From Rhizobium leucaenae USDA 9039 (GTDB lineage Bacteria; Pseudomonadota; Alphaproteobacteria; Rhizobiales; Rhizobiaceae), in contig NZ_AUFB01000003.1 of NCBI RefSeq assembly GCF_000426285.1, positions 124,001 through 188,000 on the forward strand: a DNA stretch of 64,000 nucleotides. The letters run 5' to 3'. A program made the translations under genes and the position numbers. Positions 21,416 through 30,893 of the stretch are shown in pieces. Under the pieces are notes generated by a model. It saw only the letters and a program-made list of their open reading frames with translations. It had not been told where the DNA came from and made no database searches. Numbering within the stretch: position 1 is the stretch's first letter; the number at the start of each line of letters is the position of its first letter.

Positions 21416-21820
21416 ATGAAGAAGACCTATCATGGAAGCTGCCATTGCGGCGCTGTCGCTTATGAAGCTGATCTCGATCTGCAGGGCGGCACCTTCAAAT
21501 GCAACTGCTCGATCTGCAGGAAAAAACGCAATTGGCTGGCCGTCGCCACGCCAGCAGATTTCCGCCTGACCTCGGGCGAGGACAGCATCGGCGAATATCA
21601 ATTCGGCCCGCGCATCCTGCATCATCTCTTCTGCAAGAATTGCGGCATCAGTTCCTTCAACTGGGGTGAAAATCCGGCACTCGGCGGCAAATTCTACGCA
21701 ATCAGCATTAGCTGCTTGGACGATGCCACAGACGAAGAACTCGCCGCCCTTCCGGTCGGCTATTTCGACGGTCGCGACGATCGCTTTGATCGTGCGCCGG
21801 AGGAAACGCGCTATCTTTAG
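21416..21820 (+). CDS. GFA-family (glutathione-dependent formaldehyde-activating-like) zinc protein
   Basis: A 134-aa protein with the GFA zinc-site cysteines: CHCGA (about residues 9-13), CNCSIC (about 31-36) and FCKNCG (about 69-74). Some members bind S-hydroxymethyl glutathione adducts, but a general catalytic role is not established. Third gene of the arsR-SRPBCC-GFA operon. The ATG at 21416 gives better spacing to GGATGAGAG than the ATG at 21407. Its stop codon overlaps the convergent vapC stop by 3 bp. Confidence 0.88.
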   Translation: MKKTYHGSCHCGAVAYEADLDLQGGTFKCNCSICRKKRNWLAVATPADFRLTSGEDSIGEYQFGPRILHHLFCKNCGISSFNWGENPALGGKFYAISISCLDDATDEELAALPVGYFDGRDDRFDRAPEETRYL

Positions 21821-22219
21821 GCGTTGGGCAAGGGCTCCCAGTCTTCGAAACGCAGCTTTTGAACGCGTTGAAACTCTCTGACGTTGTGCGTTATCAGGAT
21901 CAGATCGCGGGCGACTGCCTGACCCGCGATCAAAACATCATAGACACCAATCGGCGTGCCGAGAGAAGCAAGTTCAGCGCGAATTTCGCCGGCCATCCTG
22001 GCATCTTCTCTGTCGAAATTCAGCGTTTCAAATTGCAATGCCTCGACACGCGCTAGATTGTCGACAGCGCGCTGGCCCTTGTAGGCACCATAAAACAGCT
22101 CATGCGCGACGATGGCCGGAATGGCGAAATCCTGGCTTATGTCTGCGAAGCTCACTCACGAAGCCGGGATGTCCTTTCATCAAAGCGATGACGGCATTGC
22201 TGTCGAGCAGGTATTTCAC
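21817..22219 (-). pseudogene. vapC: VapC-type PIN-domain toxin gene with a frameshift
   Basis: Starts with GTG at 22219 overlapping the antitoxin stop (GTGA). The first frame gives KYLLDSNAVIALMKGHPG ... RRHKP, which holds the first PIN Asp. The frame then shifts near 22140 and continues as DFAIPAIVAHELFYGAYKG, then GVYDVLIAGQA and LITHNVREF, which hold the remaining acidic residues. One extra base (or two missing) separates the halves, so no complete ribonuclease can be made as read. Either the toxin is inactivated or the base is a sequencing error. Confidence 0.8.
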
Positions 22220-22458
22220 TTGAAGATATCCAGCTCAGGGCGTTGCTGCTCTGCAGGCTGCTCGGTCGCAGCCTCCGCGAAGTCTTGATCGACCGGCCCT
22301 GTCACGGCCTCCAGCCAATCCCAATCTTCGGCGATCGGTTCAAGAATGATTGCTTTCCCCTGCCGCCGGATGCGCACTTCTTCGCCGTCGACGCGGAATT
22401 CCTTGGGCAAGCGCACGGCCTGCGAGCGGCCGGACCAGAAGATTTTTGCGGTGTCCAT
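22216..22458 (-). CDS. vapB: VapB-type antitoxin (AbrB/SpoVT fold)
   Basis: An 80-aa protein beginning MDTAKIFWSGRSQAVRLP, the swapped-hairpin AbrB DNA-binding domain of VapB antitoxins. The acidic C-terminal half (residues about 45-80) would wrap the toxin. The ATG at 22458 is chosen over extended in-frame starts. Its stop codon overlaps the vapC start (GTGA), so the pair is translationally coupled. Autoregulation of the operon is expected from the family. Confidence 0.9.
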   Translation of the reverse strand: MDTAKIFWSGRSQAVRLPKEFRVDGEEVRIRRQGKAIILEPIAEDWDWLEAVTGPVDQDFAEAATEQPAEQQRPELDIFK

Positions 22459-22524
22459 GCCATAACTCCTTTGAGATATGACATTGATATATAGCATGTT
22501 GAGTGGCGATTTCAATTCGCGGCG

Positions 22525-23323: not shown

Positions 23324-24985
23324 CTATCCGAGACGGATATAGGGCACATCTTTTTTCGCAACTTCGTCCAGCGCTTCCTCATAGCCGGCATCGGCATAGC
23401 GTATGACGCCAAGGGCGGTGTCGTTGGTCAGCGCGTGATCGAGCCGTTCATCGGCGGCAGCCGTGCCGTCGGCGACCACGGTGACGCCGCAGCTCGTCAT
23501 ATAACCGGCATAGCCGCCGCCGCCAGAATGGATGACGACGAGATCGGCCATGGACGAGCAGAGCATCATGGCGTCGATCAGCGGCCAGTCGGCGATCGCG
23601 TCGGAGCCGTCCTTCATGCGTTCGGTCATGATGTTCGGATGCGCCATGGCGCCGGCATCGAGATGGTCGCGCGAAAAGGCGATCGGGGCTTTCAGCTCGC
23701 CGCTTGCCACAAGCTCGTTGACGCGGCGGGCAAGCGCAGTGCGCTCGCCATGGCCAAGCCAAGCGATGCGCGCCGGCAGCCCTTCGAAGGGCACATGCTG
23801 GCGGGCAAGGCGGATCCAGTTGGTGATGATCTTATTGTCGGGGAACATTTCCAGCAGCAGATCGTCGATACGGGCGACATCGCTTTCCTCGCCCGAAAGC
23901 GCCATCCAGCGGAACGGGCCGATGGCGCGGCAGAAGAGCGGTCTGAGGTAAGCTTCGGTAAAGATCGGGATATCGAAGGCATTGGCGACGCCGCCTTCCT
24001 TCGCCTGGGTGCGGATGAGGTTGCCGTTGTCGAAGACTTCGGAGCCTTGTCTCTGGAAGTCCAGCATTGCCTTCACGTGCTCGACGATCGAGGCGCGGCT
24101 GGCTGCCATGAGCTGGCCCTGGCCATCGTCGCGCAAATCCCGAACCTGTTGTAGGCTCATGCCCTTCGGCACGTAGCCATAGACGAGATCGTGGGCCGAG
24201 GTCTGATCGGTGACGATATCGGGCACGATGCCGCGGCGTGCAATCTCGGGATAGATCTCGGCCGCATTGCCGACGAGCCCGACGGAAAGCGCCCGCTTCT
24301 CCTTGACGGCTGCATCGATCATCGCCAGCGCGGAATCGAGATCGGGCGCGATCTCCTGCAGATAGCCGATGTCCTGGCGCTTCCTGGCGCGCTCCGCATC
24401 GATGTCGACGCAGAGGATTGCGGCCCCCGCCATGCGTCCAGCGAGCGGCTGCGCGCCGCCCATGCCGCCGAGACCGGCTGTCAGCACGAAACGGCCGAAG
24501 AGATCGCCGCCAAAGCGGCGCTCGGCGATGCGCATGAAGATTTCATAGGTGCCCTGGATGACGCCCTGGCTGCCGATATACTGCCAGGCGCCAGCGGTGA
24601 GCCCACCCCAGCAGATCAGGCCCTTGCGCTGCAGCTCGTAGAAGACCTCGGCCTTCGCCCATTGCCCGACGATGTTGCAGTTCGCCATGATGACGAGCGG
24701 CGCCTTGTCATGGGTGCGGATGAGGCCGATCGGCTTGCCGGACTGAATGAGCAGCGTCTGGTTCTCATCCATTTCGATCAGCGCCTTCACGATGCCCTTG
24801 TGCGCTGCCCAATTGCGGGCTGCCTTGCCGAGGGCTGCGTAGACGACGAGATTATCCGGATCTTCGCCGACCGAAAGCACGTTTTCGAGCAAGCGCAGCA
24901 GGGCCTCCTGCCGCCAGCCTTTGGCACGCAGCTCCGGGCCGCCCGGGATAGGGAATTTCGGGTGACGTGGATTGGCTTTCGGCAT
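23324..24985 (-). CDS. Urocanate hydratase homologue, probably thiourocanate hydratase
   Basis: A 553-aa NAD-dependent hydratase of the HutU family: GLGGMGGAQPLA, the family's nucleotide-binding segment, and the C-terminal NDTALGVIRYADAGYE are clear. Two otherwise conserved stretches differ from housekeeping HutU as I know it: IHSGGGGYAGYMTS (about residues 485-498; HutU has a HHGGGVG-type loop) and MANCNIVGQWA. With a lyase lacking the MIO triad, a DUF917 desulfurase and hydantoin-ring enzymes upstream, and no hutI, hutG or hutC, hydration of thiourocanate is the better reading. Last enzyme gene of the 23.3-30.9 kb operon, separated from the tfoX-like gene by a palindromic repeat. Confidence 0.85.
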   Translation of the reverse strand: MPKANPRHPKFPIPGGPELRAKGWRQEALLRLLENVLSVGEDPDNLVVYAALGKAARNWAAHKGIVKALIEMDENQTLLIQSGKPIGLIRTHDKAPLVIMANCNIVGQWAKAEVFYELQRKGLICWGGLTAGAWQYIGSQGVIQGTYEIFMRIAERRFGGDLFGRFVLTAGLGGMGGAQPLAGRMAGAAILCVDIDAERARKRQDIGYLQEIAPDLDSALAMIDAAVKEKRALSVGLVGNAAEIYPEIARRGIVPDIVTDQTSAHDLVYGYVPKGMSLQQVRDLRDDGQGQLMAASRASIVEHVKAMLDFQRQGSEVFDNGNLIRTQAKEGGVANAFDIPIFTEAYLRPLFCRAIGPFRWMALSGEESDVARIDDLLLEMFPDNKIITNWIRLARQHVPFEGLPARIAWLGHGERTALARRVNELVASGELKAPIAFSRDHLDAGAMAHPNIMTERMKDGSDAIADWPLIDAMMLCSSMADLVVIHSGGGGYAGYMTSCGVTVVADGTAAADERLDHALTNDTALGVIRYADAGYEEALDEVAKKDVPYIRLG

Positions 24986-25013
24986 GGTCTGATCCTTGTG
25001 TTTGGTGGTCTCC

Positions 25014-25162
25014 CTTCTCCCCTCGGGGAGAAGGTGGCCCGAAGGGTCGGATGAGGGGGCCGGCTCGGCATATGCCGTCTTCGCTTGCCGCTCAGACGCT
25101 CGCTCCTTTGTCGCTCACCCCCTCATCTGTCCTGACGGACATCTTCTCCCCGAGGGGAGAAG
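25014..25162. repeat. RIME-like palindromic intergenic element, family A, copy 1
   Basis: Two hairpins with identical 9-bp arms (CTTCTCCCC / GGGGAGAAG at 25014-25033 and 25143-25162) flank an inner inverted pair (GATGAGGGGG, CCCCCTCATC). The layout fits the rhizobial RIME type. It lies inside the ergothioneine-type operon, between the tfoX-like and hutU-like genes, and could modulate downstream expression or message stability. Confidence 0.75.
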
Positions 25163-25174
25163 AGGAAAACTCGT

Positions 25175-25504
25175 TCACTTCGGCGACAGAGCCTCAACGA
25201 AATCCAACGCGGCCAAGAGCAGTCTTTTGCGCAGCATGTCGTTGCCATAGGCTTCCGGCCCGGCGCGCACCCATCCCTGCATTTCGCGGCCGCCTGACAG
25301 CATGGGTTTGATATCACGCTGCTCCAGCGCCCAGGCATCATTGCCCTTGCCAAGGCGGATCAGCATGCCGTCGTCGCGGGCGCCGCAAAGCAAGTTGCCG
25401 TTGAGCAGAAGGGCCCAGCCCCCGAACATCGTTTTTTCGCTGAGGCCCGGCCGTTGCCCGATTTCTTCTTTCAGCAATTCCTCAAGACCTGCGTCGCGTG
25501 CCAT
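25175..25504 (-). CDS. TfoX N-terminal-domain protein
   Basis: A 109-aa protein consisting of the TfoX/Sxy N-terminal domain. Seen: EKTMFGGWALLLNGNLLCGA (residues about 23-42), MLIRLGKG, and GWVRAGPEAYG near the C-terminus. Sxy regulates competence genes in gammaproteobacteria; the role of these short alphaproteobacterial versions is unknown. It starts 18 bp after the DUF917 gene on the same strand, so it is probably co-transcribed, but a metabolic link is not evident. Confidence 0.85.
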   Translation of the reverse strand: MARDAGLEELLKEEIGQRPGLSEKTMFGGWALLLNGNLLCGARDDGMLIRLGKGNDAWALEQRDIKPMLSGGREMQGWVRAGPEAYGNDMLRKRLLLAALDFVEALSPK

Positions 25505-25522
25505 TGTCTTCTCCCGGTGCTG

Positions 25523-26623
25523 TCAGCCTTTCTTGCCGCCCAGAGCGTATCTCGCGATCTCTATCCCCATGGCCTTTTCGACTGAGGGATAGACGGTCGG
25601 ATCGAGCACACTGGCAGACAGCGGAATGATATCCATCGGCACATGCAGGATGAAAACCTTCATGCCCTCATGCAACTGGCCGACGCTCAAGGGCTCGCCT
25701 TCCGGCGACAACGTGGTGATGACGGAGGGGAAGGTCGCGAGGCGCTTGCCACCGGTATCTTCGACGGCCATGTATTCGTTCATCACATGCATGACCACGG
25801 CCTTGTCGCCGCTGCCGACCGTGACGGTGCCAATATCGAAGGCTTCCTTCGTATAGACGACATCCTTCTTAGTGATCGTGCCTTCGGCCAAGATATGGCC
25901 TCCGGTCGTCTTGCAGATGGCGTCGATGACGGCGCCACCGCCCTTCTTCTCCGCCTCGCTAATCGCTTCGCCGAGCGAAAGCGCCATGGAGATGCCGCCA
26001 AGCGCCGCATGCGTGCGGACATAGGAGGCGCGCAGCGGATTGCGGCAGGAGGCGATAAAGCCGCCGGACTGATCGGAGGCTGCGCGCAGGATCGGCGAAA
26101 TCTTCGCCGTCGCGCCCTTTACGACCAGCTCGATATAGCGGTTCTCGGCGCGATTGCCGCCGACGGCGGTCTGGATCATCTGTTCGGGCGAACCGGCCAT
26201 GCCGATCGAGCCCATGTCGCCGGTCGGATGAGCGCGGATGTCGCCGACCGCATCCACGACCTTCGTTCCAAGGATGGCCGATGGCAGCCAGCCGTTCAGC
26301 GTCGAGGACTTGCCGTTCTGGCCGATGATCAGGCCGGAAAGCTTCTCGCCGAGCTCGTCCTGCAGCAGTTGCACGGCTTTCACGTAATCGATGCCCTGCA
26401 TTTCCCAGGCAGTCGTGGAGGCCGGTGCGCCGATGGCGGCGGCCGTGGCGATCCAGTCGTCGTCGCCGAGTTCGTCGATCGACACCAGCTCCGGCTTACC
26501 GACATTGACGGCCGCATAGCCGAGCATACGGCCGTGATCGGCCCAGCCGCCGCCGCCGGCGGCGTAAACCGAGCCGCCCTTGACGGCCGCTTCCACATCC
26601 TTGGCAACGAGTACGCGTCCCAT
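25523..26623 (-). CDS. DUF917 protein, S-methyl thiohydantoin desulfurase family; predicted thiohydantoin-propionate desulfhydrase
   Basis: A 366-aa protein of the DUF917 / S-methyl thiohydantoin desulfurase family, starting MGRVLVAKDVEAAVKGG with GGGGWADHGRML close behind. DUF917 proteins are often linked to hydantoinase-type genes. In the bacterial ergothioneine pathway a desulfhydrase removes sulfur from 3-(5-oxo-2-thioxoimidazolidin-4-yl)propionate to give hydantoin-5-propionate, and this gene fits that step. It sits 3 bp after the M20 hydrolase gene. Reaction assignment is inference from family and context. Confidence 0.78.
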   Translation of the reverse strand: MGRVLVAKDVEAAVKGGSVYAAGGGGWADHGRMLGYAAVNVGKPELVSIDELGDDDWIATAAAIGAPASTTAWEMQGIDYVKAVQLLQDELGEKLSGLIIGQNGKSSTLNGWLPSAILGTKVVDAVGDIRAHPTGDMGSIGMAGSPEQMIQTAVGGNRAENRYIELVVKGATAKISPILRAASDQSGGFIASCRNPLRASYVRTHAALGGISMALSLGEAISEAEKKGGGAVIDAICKTTGGHILAEGTITKKDVVYTKEAFDIGTVTVGSGDKAVVMHVMNEYMAVEDTGGKRLATFPSVITTLSPEGEPLSVGQLHEGMKVFILHVPMDIIPLSASVLDPTVYPSVEKAMGIEIARYALGGKKG

Positions 26624-26626
26624 TGG

Positions 26627-27901
26627 CTACTCCCGGTTTGGCTTGAGGTTCCTGTCCATGTCGCGCACTGCTTCGAACAGCACGGCGGCGCCTATGGCGA
26701 TGTCGTTATTCTCGGCCCATTCCTCGGCACAATGGCTGCGGCCTTCCTTGCAGGGCACGAAGATCATGGCGGCAGGGGCGACCTTGGCGATCCAGGCCGT
26801 GTCGTGGCCGGCACCCGAGGCCATGCGGCGGTGCTTGGCCCCGACCGTGTCGCAGGCGCGCTCAAGCGTTTCGAGCAACACCGGAGCGCCGGGGGTCGGC
26901 ATGTTGTCGGAGACGCGCACCGGCGGATTGATCGTCACGCCGTAATCGGCCGCGATGGTCTTCACCTCACCATCGATCCAGGCGAGGAACTCTTCCATGT
27001 CGCTGCGGATTTCGGCGCGGCCGTCGATCAGCAGCACCACCTTCGATGGCACGACATTGGCCGCATTCGGCTCGATGCGGAATTCGCCCACGGTGGCGGC
27101 GAAATGGCCCGGCGTCTTCGCTTGCTCGGCTGCTCGGCTCCGGATGTCGAGCACGAGCTGCGATGCCGCCACCAGCGCATCGGCGCGCCGGTCCATCGGC
27201 GTCGTGCCGGCATGGTCGGCGCGGCCTTCCACGGTGATCTCGATGCGGGTAATGCCGGCGATCGCCGTGACAATGCCGATATCCTCATTCTCGGCTTCCA
27301 GCACAGGACCCTGCTCGATATGCAGTTCCAGGAAGCCGGCGAGATCCGGGCGCTTCTGGGCGAGCAGCACCGAAGGGTCGCCACCGACCTCGGCAATCCC
27401 TTGCGAAAGCGTGCGGTCGCCGCTCACGCGGGAGAGCCATGCCTCGGGGATCTGCCCGGTCATGCCGCGGCTGCCGATGCAGGACACGCCGAAGATGCTG
27501 ACTTCCTCGGCCAGAAAGTCGACGATCTCCAGATCATGATCCAACTCGATATCGCGATCGCTCAGGGAGCGCGCGACTTCCAGCGCCGCAATCGTGCCGG
27601 CGATGCCGTCGAAGCGACCGCCATCGGGCACGGTGTCCGAATGCGATCCGACCAGGATCGTCCCAAGGCCAGGTTTGGTGCCGGGGCGCCTGCCGATCAG
27701 ATTGCCGGCGGCATCGATGCGCGTTTCCAGCCCGGCAGCTTTCATACGGGCTTCAATGTAAGCGCGGCCTTCCAAAAACAGCGGCGAAAAGGCGCGGCGC
27801 GTCCACGGGTGACCGGGTTCGGTGATCCCCGCCAGAGCCTCGATATCCTCGGCGATGCGATCGGCGTTGACGGGCAGGTTGTGGCGTTTCGATTGATTCA
27901 T
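26627..27901 (-). CDS. M20-family carbamoyl-amino-acid hydrolase; predicted N-carbamoyl-L-glutamate amidohydrolase
   Basis: A 424-aa zinc or manganese amidohydrolase of the allantoate amidohydrolase / N-carbamoyl-L-amino-acid hydrolase family. Metal-site motifs: GSHSDTVPDGGRFDG (His87, Asp98), AEEVSIFG (Glu132/Glu133) and ELHIEQGP. GRADHAGTTPMDRR marks the dimerisation-domain arm. Predicted to release glutamate, CO2 and ammonia from N-carbamoyl-glutamate, the last step of the pathway. The start codon overlaps the upstream stop (TGATG), indicating tight coupling with the amidohydrolase gene. Allantoate is an alternative substrate, but no other ureide genes are present. Confidence 0.85.
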   Translation of the reverse strand: MNQSKRHNLPVNADRIAEDIEALAGITEPGHPWTRRAFSPLFLEGRAYIEARMKAAGLETRIDAAGNLIGRRPGTKPGLGTILVGSHSDTVPDGGRFDGIAGTIAALEVARSLSDRDIELDHDLEIVDFLAEEVSIFGVSCIGSRGMTGQIPEAWLSRVSGDRTLSQGIAEVGGDPSVLLAQKRPDLAGFLELHIEQGPVLEAENEDIGIVTAIAGITRIEITVEGRADHAGTTPMDRRADALVAASQLVLDIRSRAAEQAKTPGHFAATVGEFRIEPNAANVVPSKVVLLIDGRAEIRSDMEEFLAWIDGEVKTIAADYGVTINPPVRVSDNMPTPGAPVLLETLERACDTVGAKHRRMASGAGHDTAWIAKVAPAAMIFVPCKEGRSHCAEEWAENNDIAIGAAVLFEAVRDMDRNLKPNRE

Positions 27902-29283
27902 CAGGCAGTCTCTCCGGCGATAATCTGGCGAGGAAGCGGGCGGACAAATCTGCCGCTGCCCGGCTCGGCCAATACTTTGTTTCTGTCGGCAATCTGCTTG
28001 CCTCTGAGATAGGTGGCGGATACCGTCCAAGGCAGGCGGATGCCGTTATAGGGGCTCCAGCCGACGACATTGTTGCCGCTCGAAGCGGCGTCGTAGACGG
28101 TTTCTCGCGGCTCCAGCACGACGATGTCGGCATCCGTGCCAGGGGTCAGCGCGCCCTTGATATGGTCGAGGCGGAAGTGCCTGGCGGGATTCTCCGCCAT
28201 CAGCTTCGCCGCCCAGGTGAGCGACACGCCGCGCTCCAACGCGCCCTTGACGAAGAGCGGCACCATGACTTCGAGGCCTGGAACGCCCGACGCATTCGAA
28301 AGCATATCCGAATTGGTCTTGCGGTTCTCCGACCAACTGACATGATCCGTCGAGACGAGCCAGACATTGCCCTCCGCCACTTTGCGCCATAGCGTCTCCA
28401 CTTCGGCGCGCGGGCGGATCGGCGGGTTGATCTTCGCCTTGCCGCCAAGGCGCTTCACGTCGTTTTCCTCGTCCAGCGTCAGATAGTGAATGCAGCACTC
28501 CACCGTCGCCTCGAAGCCGTCGCGGCGGTAGGCGCGGGCAATATCGTAGCCGCGGCCGAGCGAACAGTGCACCACATGTGCGGGGCAGCCGGTGTTCGCG
28601 CCCGTTTCGAAGATCGTATGCATAGCGAGCAGTTCAGTGATCGGCGGCCGTGACAGGCCGTGGGCGCGGTAGTCGGTAATGCCGCTCGCCTTCACCTGCT
28701 CCATATAGGTCCGAACCGCTTCGTCATCCTCATTGTGCACGCCGGCCGTCAGTCCCGTCGGTGCGATCGCTGCGAAGCAGGCGTCGAGCAGGGCAGGCGG
28801 GATGCGCGGGAAGCGCTTGGGATCCGTGCCGAATGTCGAGAATTTGAAGGCGGCGACGCCGGCCTCCACCATTTCGCGAATGCGTGCAGCACCTTCCTCC
28901 GGATCGACCGTGCCGTAAAGCGCGAAGTCGACGCGGGCTTGTGGGGCGGCATGATCGATCTTCTTCTTCACTGCCGCTGCCGAGCATACGAGATTGCCTT
29001 CATCATAGGGCATGTCGACGATGGTGGTAACGCCGCCGGCCGCTGCCGAGCGTGTCGACCAGACGAAGTCCTCCTGATCCTTTTGGGAGAGAGAATGCAC
29101 CTGCGCGTCGATCGCGCCGGGCAGGATCAGCGCTTTTCCGAGCAGATGTCGTTCGCTCCCTGCTGGTGGGACGCCGATGCCGATCTCAGCGATCTTGCCG
29201 TCACGCACGGCAACATAACCCTCTTCCACGATGCGATCGGGAAGAACCACGGTGCCCTGCAGAACGAGATCGAAATCAGCCAT
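27901..29283 (-). CDS. Hydantoinase/allantoinase-type cyclic amidohydrolase; predicted hydantoin-5-propionate hydrolase
   Basis: A 460-aa TIM-barrel amidohydrolase of the dihydropyrimidinase/allantoinase group, ATG at 29283 (MADFDLVLQG). The first metal motif, normally His-x-His, reads Gln61-Val-His63 (DAQVHS), so one ligand is replaced. Later motifs GVHNEDD, HVVHCS and the Asp in STDHVSW are present, as is the lysine in AAFKFSTFG. Predicted to open hydantoin-5-propionate to N-carbamoyl-glutamate. Second gene of the operon, 26 bp after the lyase and overlapping the M20 gene. Confidence 0.83.
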   Translation of the reverse strand: MADFDLVLQGTVVLPDRIVEEGYVAVRDGKIAEIGIGVPPAGSERHLLGKALILPGAIDAQVHSLSQKDQEDFVWSTRSAAAGGVTTIVDMPYDEGNLVCSAAAVKKKIDHAAPQARVDFALYGTVDPEEGAARIREMVEAGVAAFKFSTFGTDPKRFPRIPPALLDACFAAIAPTGLTAGVHNEDDEAVRTYMEQVKASGITDYRAHGLSRPPITELLAMHTIFETGANTGCPAHVVHCSLGRGYDIARAYRRDGFEATVECCIHYLTLDEENDVKRLGGKAKINPPIRPRAEVETLWRKVAEGNVWLVSTDHVSWSENRKTNSDMLSNASGVPGLEVMVPLFVKGALERGVSLTWAAKLMAENPARHFRLDHIKGALTPGTDADIVVLEPRETVYDAASSGNNVVGWSPYNGIRLPWTVSATYLRGKQIADRNKVLAEPGSGRFVRPLPRQIIAGETA

Positions 29284-29309
29284 ATCCAGTCTCCCGCTCA
29301 CCGGTTTGT

Positions 29310-30893
29310 TCAGATCACCACGGTATCGCGATAAAGCCGCTCTTCGACCCGCTCCAGCGAGCCAAGGGCGAAGAAATCATCATAGGCGAGGATCGGCGCC
29401 TGGGCGATCATTTCGGACACGAAGGCCTCTGAACCTAATTCCTCCTCGATCGCCTCGACTTCAGCCGATAGTGGCCGGTCGACGACATAGAAGTCGGCAT
29501 GTTTGCGCACGACATCGTAGAGCATGCGCGCCACACCCTCCGGCTTGTCGCCGAGAATGTCGATCGCCTGCGCCGAGAGCAGGGCTTCCAATGCCGCAAG
29601 ACGCTTCAGCGCGCGCATCTGCCGGTCGAAACGTTCGATCACCAGCGGCAGGAAGGCGGCTTCATCCTCCATGCCAGCCGCGACCACCAGCGACTGCGCC
29701 GAGACCGGATTGGACATGGACAGCACCCGCGAAAAGATCTCGCCGGCAAGCTTGATGATCGGGCCGAAGCCGGTGGCGATCTTGCCTTCTGGCACCAGAT
29801 TGACCGGCAGGCCGCGCCGCTGGCCATTGCCGAGCAGGACGCAGCGGTTGAACGCATTGCGCGCCGCATGCGCCATGCAGATGACCGCGGCCTCGAGGAG
29901 GATGGTCACGTCGAGCGGCAGCGATCCGCCCGATGTCATGACGCGACCATCGACGATGACGGGATTGTCGTCGGAGCGGCCCGTCGCCGCCAGGATCTTG
30001 TGACCGGCGGCCAGCAGATTTTCAATCACCGCGCCGAAGACCTGGCCGATCATGCGCAGGCTCAACGGGTCCTGCACATGTGTTGCCACGGGCCAAGGCC
30101 ATTCTTCAGAGGCGTTGCAGAGCCAGGAGCCAATCAGCGCTTCACGCGCGGTGCCGACATGACGTACTGCATGCCAGGGATCGCGCGAGGCACCGAGCGC
30201 GCCGGCTGCCATCATGCCGGTCGCGAGCAGCACGCGGATCGAGGAGGCGGCATTGCGGGTGGTCTCGGCAGCCGCTGAAAAACTGACGGCATTGACGCTG
30301 AGCGAAGCAAGGCTGTCGCGCGGCAGCATTCTCACCGGCCTGATGTCGGCCGCAGCAAAGGCATCCGCCGCCTGCATGCGCCGGCCGTGATAGACGGCTT
30401 CGCCGACCCCGGTGAGCACCGCGCCGATCTGGCCCATGAGGCCGATGTCGGCGCAGCCGATCGAGCCGGTGCGGCGCACAACGGGGATGACATCCGCATG
30501 CAGAAGCTGGAGATAGGCGTCGATCAGCTCCGGCGAGCAGCCGACTCGGCCGGTCAGCGCGGTATTGACCCGGATCGCCATGGCATTGCGGACGACGGAC
30601 ATGGAAAAGGGTGCACCCGTGCCGAAATGATGCGCGCGCACCAGGCCGAGATTGAAGGTATCAAGGTCTTCCGGCGACCACTCCACATCCTTCATCGCTC
30701 CGACGCCGGTGGTCGAGCCATAGACGGGCATTCCGGACTCGATCGTGCTTTCGAGAACTTCGCGTGCGGCGCGCACGCGCACCAGGCCGCTTTCCGATGC
30801 CGAGGGCATCACGACACCCGCGCCGATCCGCACCAGATCACTGAACCCTAAGGGTTGTCCGGTGAGTTCGATGCCGGCTTTCTGACGCTCCAT
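29310..30893 (-). CDS. Histidine ammonia-lyase-family enzyme without MIO triad; predicted ergothionase
   Basis: A 527-aa member of the aromatic amino-acid lyase family. The catalytic Tyr region is kept (VYGSTTGVG, Tyr58), but where ammonia-lyases have GSVG-Ala-Ser-Gly this protein has GSIG-Cys147-Ala148-Asp149, so the MIO cofactor cannot form in the usual way. Ergothionase, which expels trimethylamine from ergothioneine, belongs to this family and is reported to work without MIO. The downstream enzymes match the rest of ergothioneine catabolism. The ATG at 30893 has GGAG about 11 nt upstream. First gene of the operon; two palindromes lie just upstream. Confidence 0.8.
   Translation of the reverse strand: MERQKAGIELTGQPLGFSDLVRIGAGVVMPSASESGLVRVRAAREVLESTIESGMPVYGSTTGVGAMKDVEWSPEDLDTFNLGLVRAHHFGTGAPFSMSVVRNAMAIRVNTALTGRVGCSPELIDAYLQLLHADVIPVVRRTGSIGCADIGLMGQIGAVLTGVGEAVYHGRRMQAADAFAAADIRPVRMLPRDSLASLSVNAVSFSAAAETTRNAASSIRVLLATGMMAAGALGASRDPWHAVRHVGTAREALIGSWLCNASEEWPWPVATHVQDPLSLRMIGQVFGAVIENLLAAGHKILAATGRSDDNPVIVDGRVMTSGGSLPLDVTILLEAAVICMAHAARNAFNRCVLLGNGQRRGLPVNLVPEGKIATGFGPIIKLAGEIFSRVLSMSNPVSAQSLVVAAGMEDEAAFLPLVIERFDRQMRALKRLAALEALLSAQAIDILGDKPEGVARMLYDVVRKHADFYVVDRPLSAEVEAIEEELGSEAFVSEMIAQAPILAYDDFFALGSLERVEERLYRDTVVI

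Follow-up and report, generated by a model that had tools for sequence, protein, structure and literature searches.

A cluster of five enzyme genes in Rhizobium leucaenae USDA 9039 (Rhizobiaceae) very probably encodes the five-step bacterial catabolic pathway for ergothioneine, a sulfur-containing antioxidant that comes from fungi and some bacteria and is taken up by plants and animals. The genes occupy positions 23,324 to 30,893 of a 64,000-nucleotide stretch of contig NZ_AUFB01000003.1, the whole of which is referred to here as the window, and encode a lyase of the histidine ammonia-lyase (HAL) superfamily, the amidohydrolases ErtD and ErtE, a DUF917 protein, and a urocanase homolog (Table 1). 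The reactions, uptake, and regulation proposed below are predicted from sequence. A five-step pathway of this kind was reportedly described by Beliaeva, Leisinger and Seebeck in 2021; that work, together with Maurer et al. 2019 and Muramatsu 2013, is said to cover the pathway, ergothionase, and desulfurase. A preliminary description of the window had read the cluster as serving ergothioneine catabolism rather than histidine utilization, with a matching family at every pathway step. The reading is borne out by curated model matches, by the lack in the lyase of the residue triad that forms the 4-methylideneimidazole-5-one (MIO) group, and by a separate hut operon elsewhere in the genome.

Enzyme identity was judged by curated NCBIfam equivalog models, each with its own cut-off. 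Four of the five cluster enzymes, all those acting after the lyase, score above the cut-offs of models specific to ergothioneine catabolism; the lyase is the exception. The hydratase is closest among solved chains to 7ned (E = 7e-243), which we take to be the published Paenibacillus enzyme. It also exceeds the cut-off of the broad hutU model (698 bits vs. 375). As a control, the canonical HutU of the same genome scores 967 bits on the hutU model and 675 on the thiourocanate hydratase model NF058530, below the cut-off of 930.

The lyase itself, judged by its amino acid sequence, is not a histidine ammonia-lyase. It scores 202 bits on the HutH equivalog, far below the cut-off of 539, and by sequence the solved protein closest to it is the ergothionase of Treponema denticola (6s7j, E = 7e-47), followed by a HAL (6e-39). 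Where HAL enzymes form MIO from Ala-Ser-Gly (ASG), the window lyase has GSIGCADIG, with one residue fewer once aligned. The triad is missing from each of the 20 cluster lyases in the alignment, which read GS[IM]GC[AG]DIGLMGQ there, and from the T. denticola ergothionase. The absence of MIO from ergothionase is stated in PMC13405746. Six residues (K68, D69, N201, D308, G377, and K381 in window numbering) are invariant in the 20 lyases and present in the T. denticola ergothionase, and are absent both from the HAL of Pseudomonas putida and from the HutH encoded in this genome. Four more (Y58, H88, R280, and E409) are common to the cluster lyases and all three of these enzymes.

A phylogenetic comparison with ergothionases and HALs, which the preliminary description had recommended, sets the lyase apart from HAL. 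In approximately unbiased (AU) tests, a constraint placing the rhizobial lyases with true HAL was rejected (p = 0.00025), while one placing them with the ergothionase clade was not (p = 0.49). The rhizobial lyases make up a deep clade of their own in a tree of 27 rows, in which the lyases of T. denticola and Burkholderia arboris form another together with two that have signal-peptide-like starts (support 88/96); the tree program flags long branches in both trees. With the T. denticola ergothionase (6s7j, 6s7q) and the Burkholderia-type lyase, the rhizobial lyases share membership of the HAL superfamily, lack of the MIO triad, and a set of polar residues. They differ from that type in the motif at the triad site, which there is GE[GA]D, and in their own deep branch. 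The lyase of B. arboris (L231) is T. denticola-like (35% to that enzyme, 31% to the window's) and belongs to a cluster that is otherwise equivalent.

Several results weigh against calling the rhizobial lyase an ergothionase. No curated ergothionase model is among its eight NCBIfam matches, and none of the equivalogs is passed. It is about a quarter identical to the T. denticola ergothionase (25-26% in the Foldseek alignment), and its clade, on a long branch, does not group with the ergothionases when the trees are unconstrained. An AlphaFold model made for it from 15 sequences is poor (mean predicted local distance difference test score 61), and with this model Foldseek gives comparable E values for a HAL entry (8.6e-20) and for ergothionase (1.2e-19), so structure comparison does not discriminate between them. 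The designation of the lyase as a presumed ergothionase follows, therefore, from gene context and residue pattern rather than from close kinship.

The proposed pathway would begin with elimination of trimethylamine from ergothioneine by the MIO-less lyase, through acid/base catalysis, to give thiourocanate; since a quaternary amine leaves readily by itself, the enzyme would have no need of MIO. The urocanase homolog would then hydrate thiourocanate to thiohydantoin propionate, from which the DUF917 enzyme would strip the sulfur as sulfide, leaving hydantoin-5-propionate. Ring opening by ErtD would yield N-carbamoyl-L-glutamate, and ErtE would convert this to L-glutamate, CO2, and ammonia.

The main rival to this scheme concerns the exact substrate. 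The lyase could serve mainly for ergothioneine sulfonate, with ergothioneine possibly a side substrate. The T. denticola enzyme is reported to accept ergothioneine sulfonic acid as well, and an ergothionase has reportedly been published from Burkholderia sp. HME13. An ergothionase is also said to have been identified in Agrobacterium radiobacter, a rhizobial relative, and the ergothioneine sulfonate pathway is cited for it in PMC13405746. Should the A. radiobacter lyase belong to the rhizobial type, as it may, the lineage described here would be less new. We nevertheless consider sulfonate an improbable main substrate, since two enzymes of the ergothioneine route, the desulfurase and the thiourocanate hydratase, score well above cut-off and a sulfonate route would have no obvious need for a thiohydantoin desulfurase. 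Degradation of S-methyl-ergothioneine instead of ergothioneine is rejected as very improbable: the hydratase and the DUF917 protein do match the S-methyl models (742 bits, and 277 bits on NF058532), but both fall under the cut-offs (880 and 450) while passing the ergothioneine models.

Whole-genome searches find four HAL-family genes and two urocanase genes. A second, canonical hut operon, for which the preliminary description had suggested a search, is present on contig C4 (L007), with hutU, hutH (725 bits), hutI (450 bits), hutF, and hutC. Its first two enzymes are homologous to those of the ergothioneine cluster; it differs in carrying HutI, HutF, and HutC and in a HutH that retains the ASG triad. 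The histidine-specific genes are lacking from the ergothioneine cluster, as had been claimed: no hutI, hutF/hutG, or hutC is found among its genes. That the cluster is a second set for utilization of histidine (or N-methylhistidine), as its HAL and urocanase superfamilies, those of the first two hut steps, and the broad hutU match might suggest, is scarcely credible given the missing MIO triad, the model scores, and the separate hut operon, and is rejected.

Two HAL-family paralogs without the MIO triad were also seen in this genome. One (contig C6, L008:7339-8835) has an amino-acid-type ATP-binding cassette (ABC) transporter and an N-methyltryptophan-oxidase-like gene as neighbors. The other (contig C2, L009:8102-9625), near an ornithine-cyclodeaminase-family gene, shares K381 and D308 with ergothionase. 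Perhaps both act on other amine substrates.

To follow the ergothioneine cluster across genomes, we located clusters by a desulfurase model score above cut-off. This criterion selects 26 of 199 sampled genomes of the family, 6 of 398 genomes sampled across the phylum (five of the six already in the family sample), and 1 of 198 genomes of another family. The 26 family clusters, the window's and 25 that were fetched, include 20 with a rhizobial-type lyase, two (L041, L042) with a different MIO-less lyase that has a signal-peptide-like start, and four (L043, L045, L047, L051) with no lyase alongside. ErtD, ErtE, desulfurase, and hydratase occur together in 24 of them; the exceptions are L044, where ErtD and ErtE are not in the fetched stretch, and L052, which ends at a contig end. 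A further set of 80 named loci comprises the best 80 of 277 matches to two peptide patterns of the window lyase, and hence close relatives. The order lyase-ErtD-ErtE-DUF917-(TfoX)-hydratase holds in 76 of these 80 and, barring the exceptions listed, in the 20 family clusters whose lyase is of the rhizobial type. The laboratory strain Rhizobium johnstonii 3841 (L120) is one of the named relatives that carry the cluster. Because it is conserved in relatives, the arrangement is not a matter of chance. The ubiB gene lies upstream of the lyase in 79 of the 80 named loci, nearly all of them Rhizobium, which makes the cluster a settled part of these chromosomes. The four loci without the full order are L095, cut by a contig end, and L142, L144, and L145 (Shinella sp., Rhizobium wenxiniae, and one unclassified isolate), where the lyase stands beside ubiB and the other four genes are not seen in the fetched stretch.

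The lyases of L046, L048, L052, L053, L056, L059, and L062 are more divergent (53-55% to the window's), and their clusters adjoin genes that, judged by sequence, look like those for a beta-keto acid cleavage enzyme and a regulator of the carnitine type. Lyases with signal-peptide-like starts occur beside equivalent clusters at L041:4587-6269, L042:12503-14185, and L185:4079-5725, with genes nearby that look by eye like members of the major facilitator superfamily. With these lyases, cleavage of ergothioneine may take place in the periplasm, a localization likewise judged by eye.

Of the 20 family clusters whose lyase is of the rhizobial type, 15 have a LysR-type gene divergent from that of the lyase. 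The five lacking this neighbor are the window's cluster, those of three other Rhizobium genomes, and L065. Among the 80 named loci the LysR gene adjoins the lyase in one (L143, a metagenome-assembled genome) and lies behind the hydratase in one. The protein has an extra helix-turn-helix stretch preceding the usual one: two HTH_1 stretches are found at L199, L046, and L044, and one at L060. Strong homologs (at least 137 bits; next 64) were found in 20 of the 199 family genomes, with that of G175 covering part only, in a survey that scored at most nine candidates per genome. Of the 20 genomes whose cluster includes a rhizobial-type lyase, 19 have such a homolog, vs. 1 of the 179 others (Fisher p = 2.5e-24, for genomes that are related and not independent). 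Outside the family, LysR homologs adjoin clusters without a visible lyase on plasmids of Paracoccus aminophilus (L232) and Thalassospira marina (L233), and the homolog at L186 is likewise beside a cluster in which no lyase was seen. Such occurrences link the LysR protein with the pathway as a whole and not just with the lyase gene.

In the genome of the window, the best LysR homolog (36%, E = 4e-46; runner-up 2e-10) is encoded away from the cluster. Its gene is adjacent to, and divergent from, that of the one homolog found (63%) of the binding protein of an ABC transporter in cluster L044. The pair lies at 277-280 kb of contig C3, about 120 kb from the cluster at 147-155 kb of the same contig. 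Besides the window's, 56 family genomes encode the binding protein, and 20 of these were examined for the adjacency: it was seen in 3 of 3 Rhizobium genomes and was absent from 6 further genomes with a cluster and from 10 without one, L209 being cut too short to decide. Including the genome of the window, it therefore holds in four of four Rhizobium genomes examined. The substrate is probably imported, since this genome has no EgtD above cut-off; synthesis of its own ergothioneine was rejected on an EgtD match that is only partial (34 bits vs. a cut-off of 290.9), EgtB and EanB not having been searched. The putative importer's binding protein has an OpuAC domain of the glycine-betaine type, which would fit a quaternary ammonium substrate. 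Among solved proteins it matches those of the glycine-betaine type at E = 1e-124 to 1e-130 and OsmF at 3e-99, far more closely than EgtUC chains (about 1e-28) of the ergothioneine importer EgtU, a system described in PMC9732360. Distribution across the family counts against the importer assignment, as the profile is weak: the binding protein is found in 57 of 199 genomes, 13 of the 26 with a cluster and 44 of the 173 others (Fisher p = 0.011). The case for it consequently leans mainly on the LysR adjacency in Rhizobium and on the importer homolog inside clusters L044 and L065.

From gene context, we infer that the LysR protein is the pathway regulator and that in Rhizobium the neighboring importer is its partner. 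The cluster resembles the published five-step pathway in its four post-lyase enzymes, and differs from it in the great distance of its lyase from the solved enzyme and, in Rhizobium, in a putative regulator and probable importer located away from the cluster. A joint proposal can be put tentatively, at somewhat under even odds: Rhizobium would have a split regulon, with the LysR that has an extra N-terminal helix-turn-helix segment, and that adjoins the cluster in most relatives, placed instead beside an ergothioneine-importing, OsmF-type ABC transporter, and the rhizobial lyase would represent a second deep lineage of MIO-less ergothionases.

The four family clusters without a lyase alongside (L043, L045, L047, L051) have a UbiD-family decarboxylase and UbiX, the latter named by eye, beside the hydratase. 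In the stretches read, tripartite ATP-independent periplasmic (TRAP) transporter and CoA-transferase genes were also recognized by eye, except that L051 ends before the CoA-transferase. In L043, the only one of the four scanned, UbiD passes TIGR00148 and all four downstream enzymes are above the ergothioneine equivalog cut-offs. Each of the four genomes has one HAL-family gene (603-617 bits), whose ASG triad marks it as HutH; because the genomes are 98-100% complete, they appear to have no ergothionase-like gene. The UbiD subfamily (at least 680 bits; next 354) occurs in 6 of the 199 family genomes, in all six beside ert-type genes. At L220 (3.8-11 kb) it accompanies LysR, a lyase-like gene without the ASG triad, ErtD, ErtE, and a partial UbiX, in a genome with no desulfurase model match in the family survey, and at L221 (6.2-10.5 kb) LysR and a lyase-like gene without the triad. 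On the Thalassospira marina plasmid (L233) the genes, UbiD and TRAP among them, are arranged in much the same way. Conceivably, although we think it doubtful, these ergothionase-less relatives live on thiourocanate released by neighbors, by means of the downstream enzymes, the TRAP importer, and the UbiD decarboxylase.

Coordinates for the window are given in Table 1. The five enzyme genes do lie on one strand, as had been described. Their tight spacing holds for the first three junctions (26 bp, a 1-bp overlap, and 3 bp) and fails at the last, where the urocanase-family gene is 537 bp from the DUF917 gene. This gap contains two features that had been overlooked. One is an open reading frame for a TfoX_N-domain protein, with homologs in 68 of the 80 named loci. 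The other is a palindromic element with nested arms of 26 nt (92% complementary) and 15 nt (87%), which may resemble rhizobial RIME elements. Near the end of the cluster, at 21817-22515 of the window, is a pair of genes for MazE-domain and PIN-domain proteins, likely a toxin-antitoxin pair; the lyase gene of Rhizobium sp. SL42 (L235) also has a neighboring pair, AbrB/MazE and VapC.

Table 1. Features of the predicted ergothioneine catabolic cluster, in window coordinates.
Feature	Position	Strand	Evidence
Lyase, MIO-less, HAL superfamily, presumed ergothionase	29310..30893	-	PF00221, 282 bits
ErtD, hydantoin-5-propionate amidohydrolase	27901..29283	-	NF058538, 785 bits (cut-off 600)
ErtE, N-carbamyl-L-glutamate amidohydrolase, M20 family	26627..27901	-	NF058540, 630 bits (cut-off 520)
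DUF917 protein, thiohydantoin desulfurase	25523..26623	-	NF058529, 601 bits (cut-off 440)
Small TfoX_N-domain protein, 109 aa	25175..25504	-	PF04993, 33.5 bits (cut-off 30.1)
Palindromic intergenic element, nested inverted repeats	25014..25162		Complementary arms
Thiourocanate hydratase, urocanase superfamily	23324..24985	-	NF058530, 1061 bits (cut-off 930)

Because the pathway itself is already published, the finding is less new than the preliminary description had rated it; what is new, from gene context, is a putative regulator and importer unlinked to the cluster, and a variant that has no ergothionase. Among the matches listed in a search of the literature on ergothioneine catabolism, ergothionase, LysR, and rhizobia, outside of which subscription papers fell, we found, by title and opening of the abstract, no description of the regulator, the rhizobial cluster, the unlinked importer, or the ergothionase-free variant. 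Public annotation hides the cluster: three records have "DUF917 family protein" and "urocanate hydratase", and one of the three has "aromatic amino acid ammonia-lyase". The candidate regulator and importer make uptake and induction testable through simple mutants, and the ergothionase-free relatives make thiourocanate cross-feeding testable. Soil bacteria that destroy ergothioneine may shape its supply.

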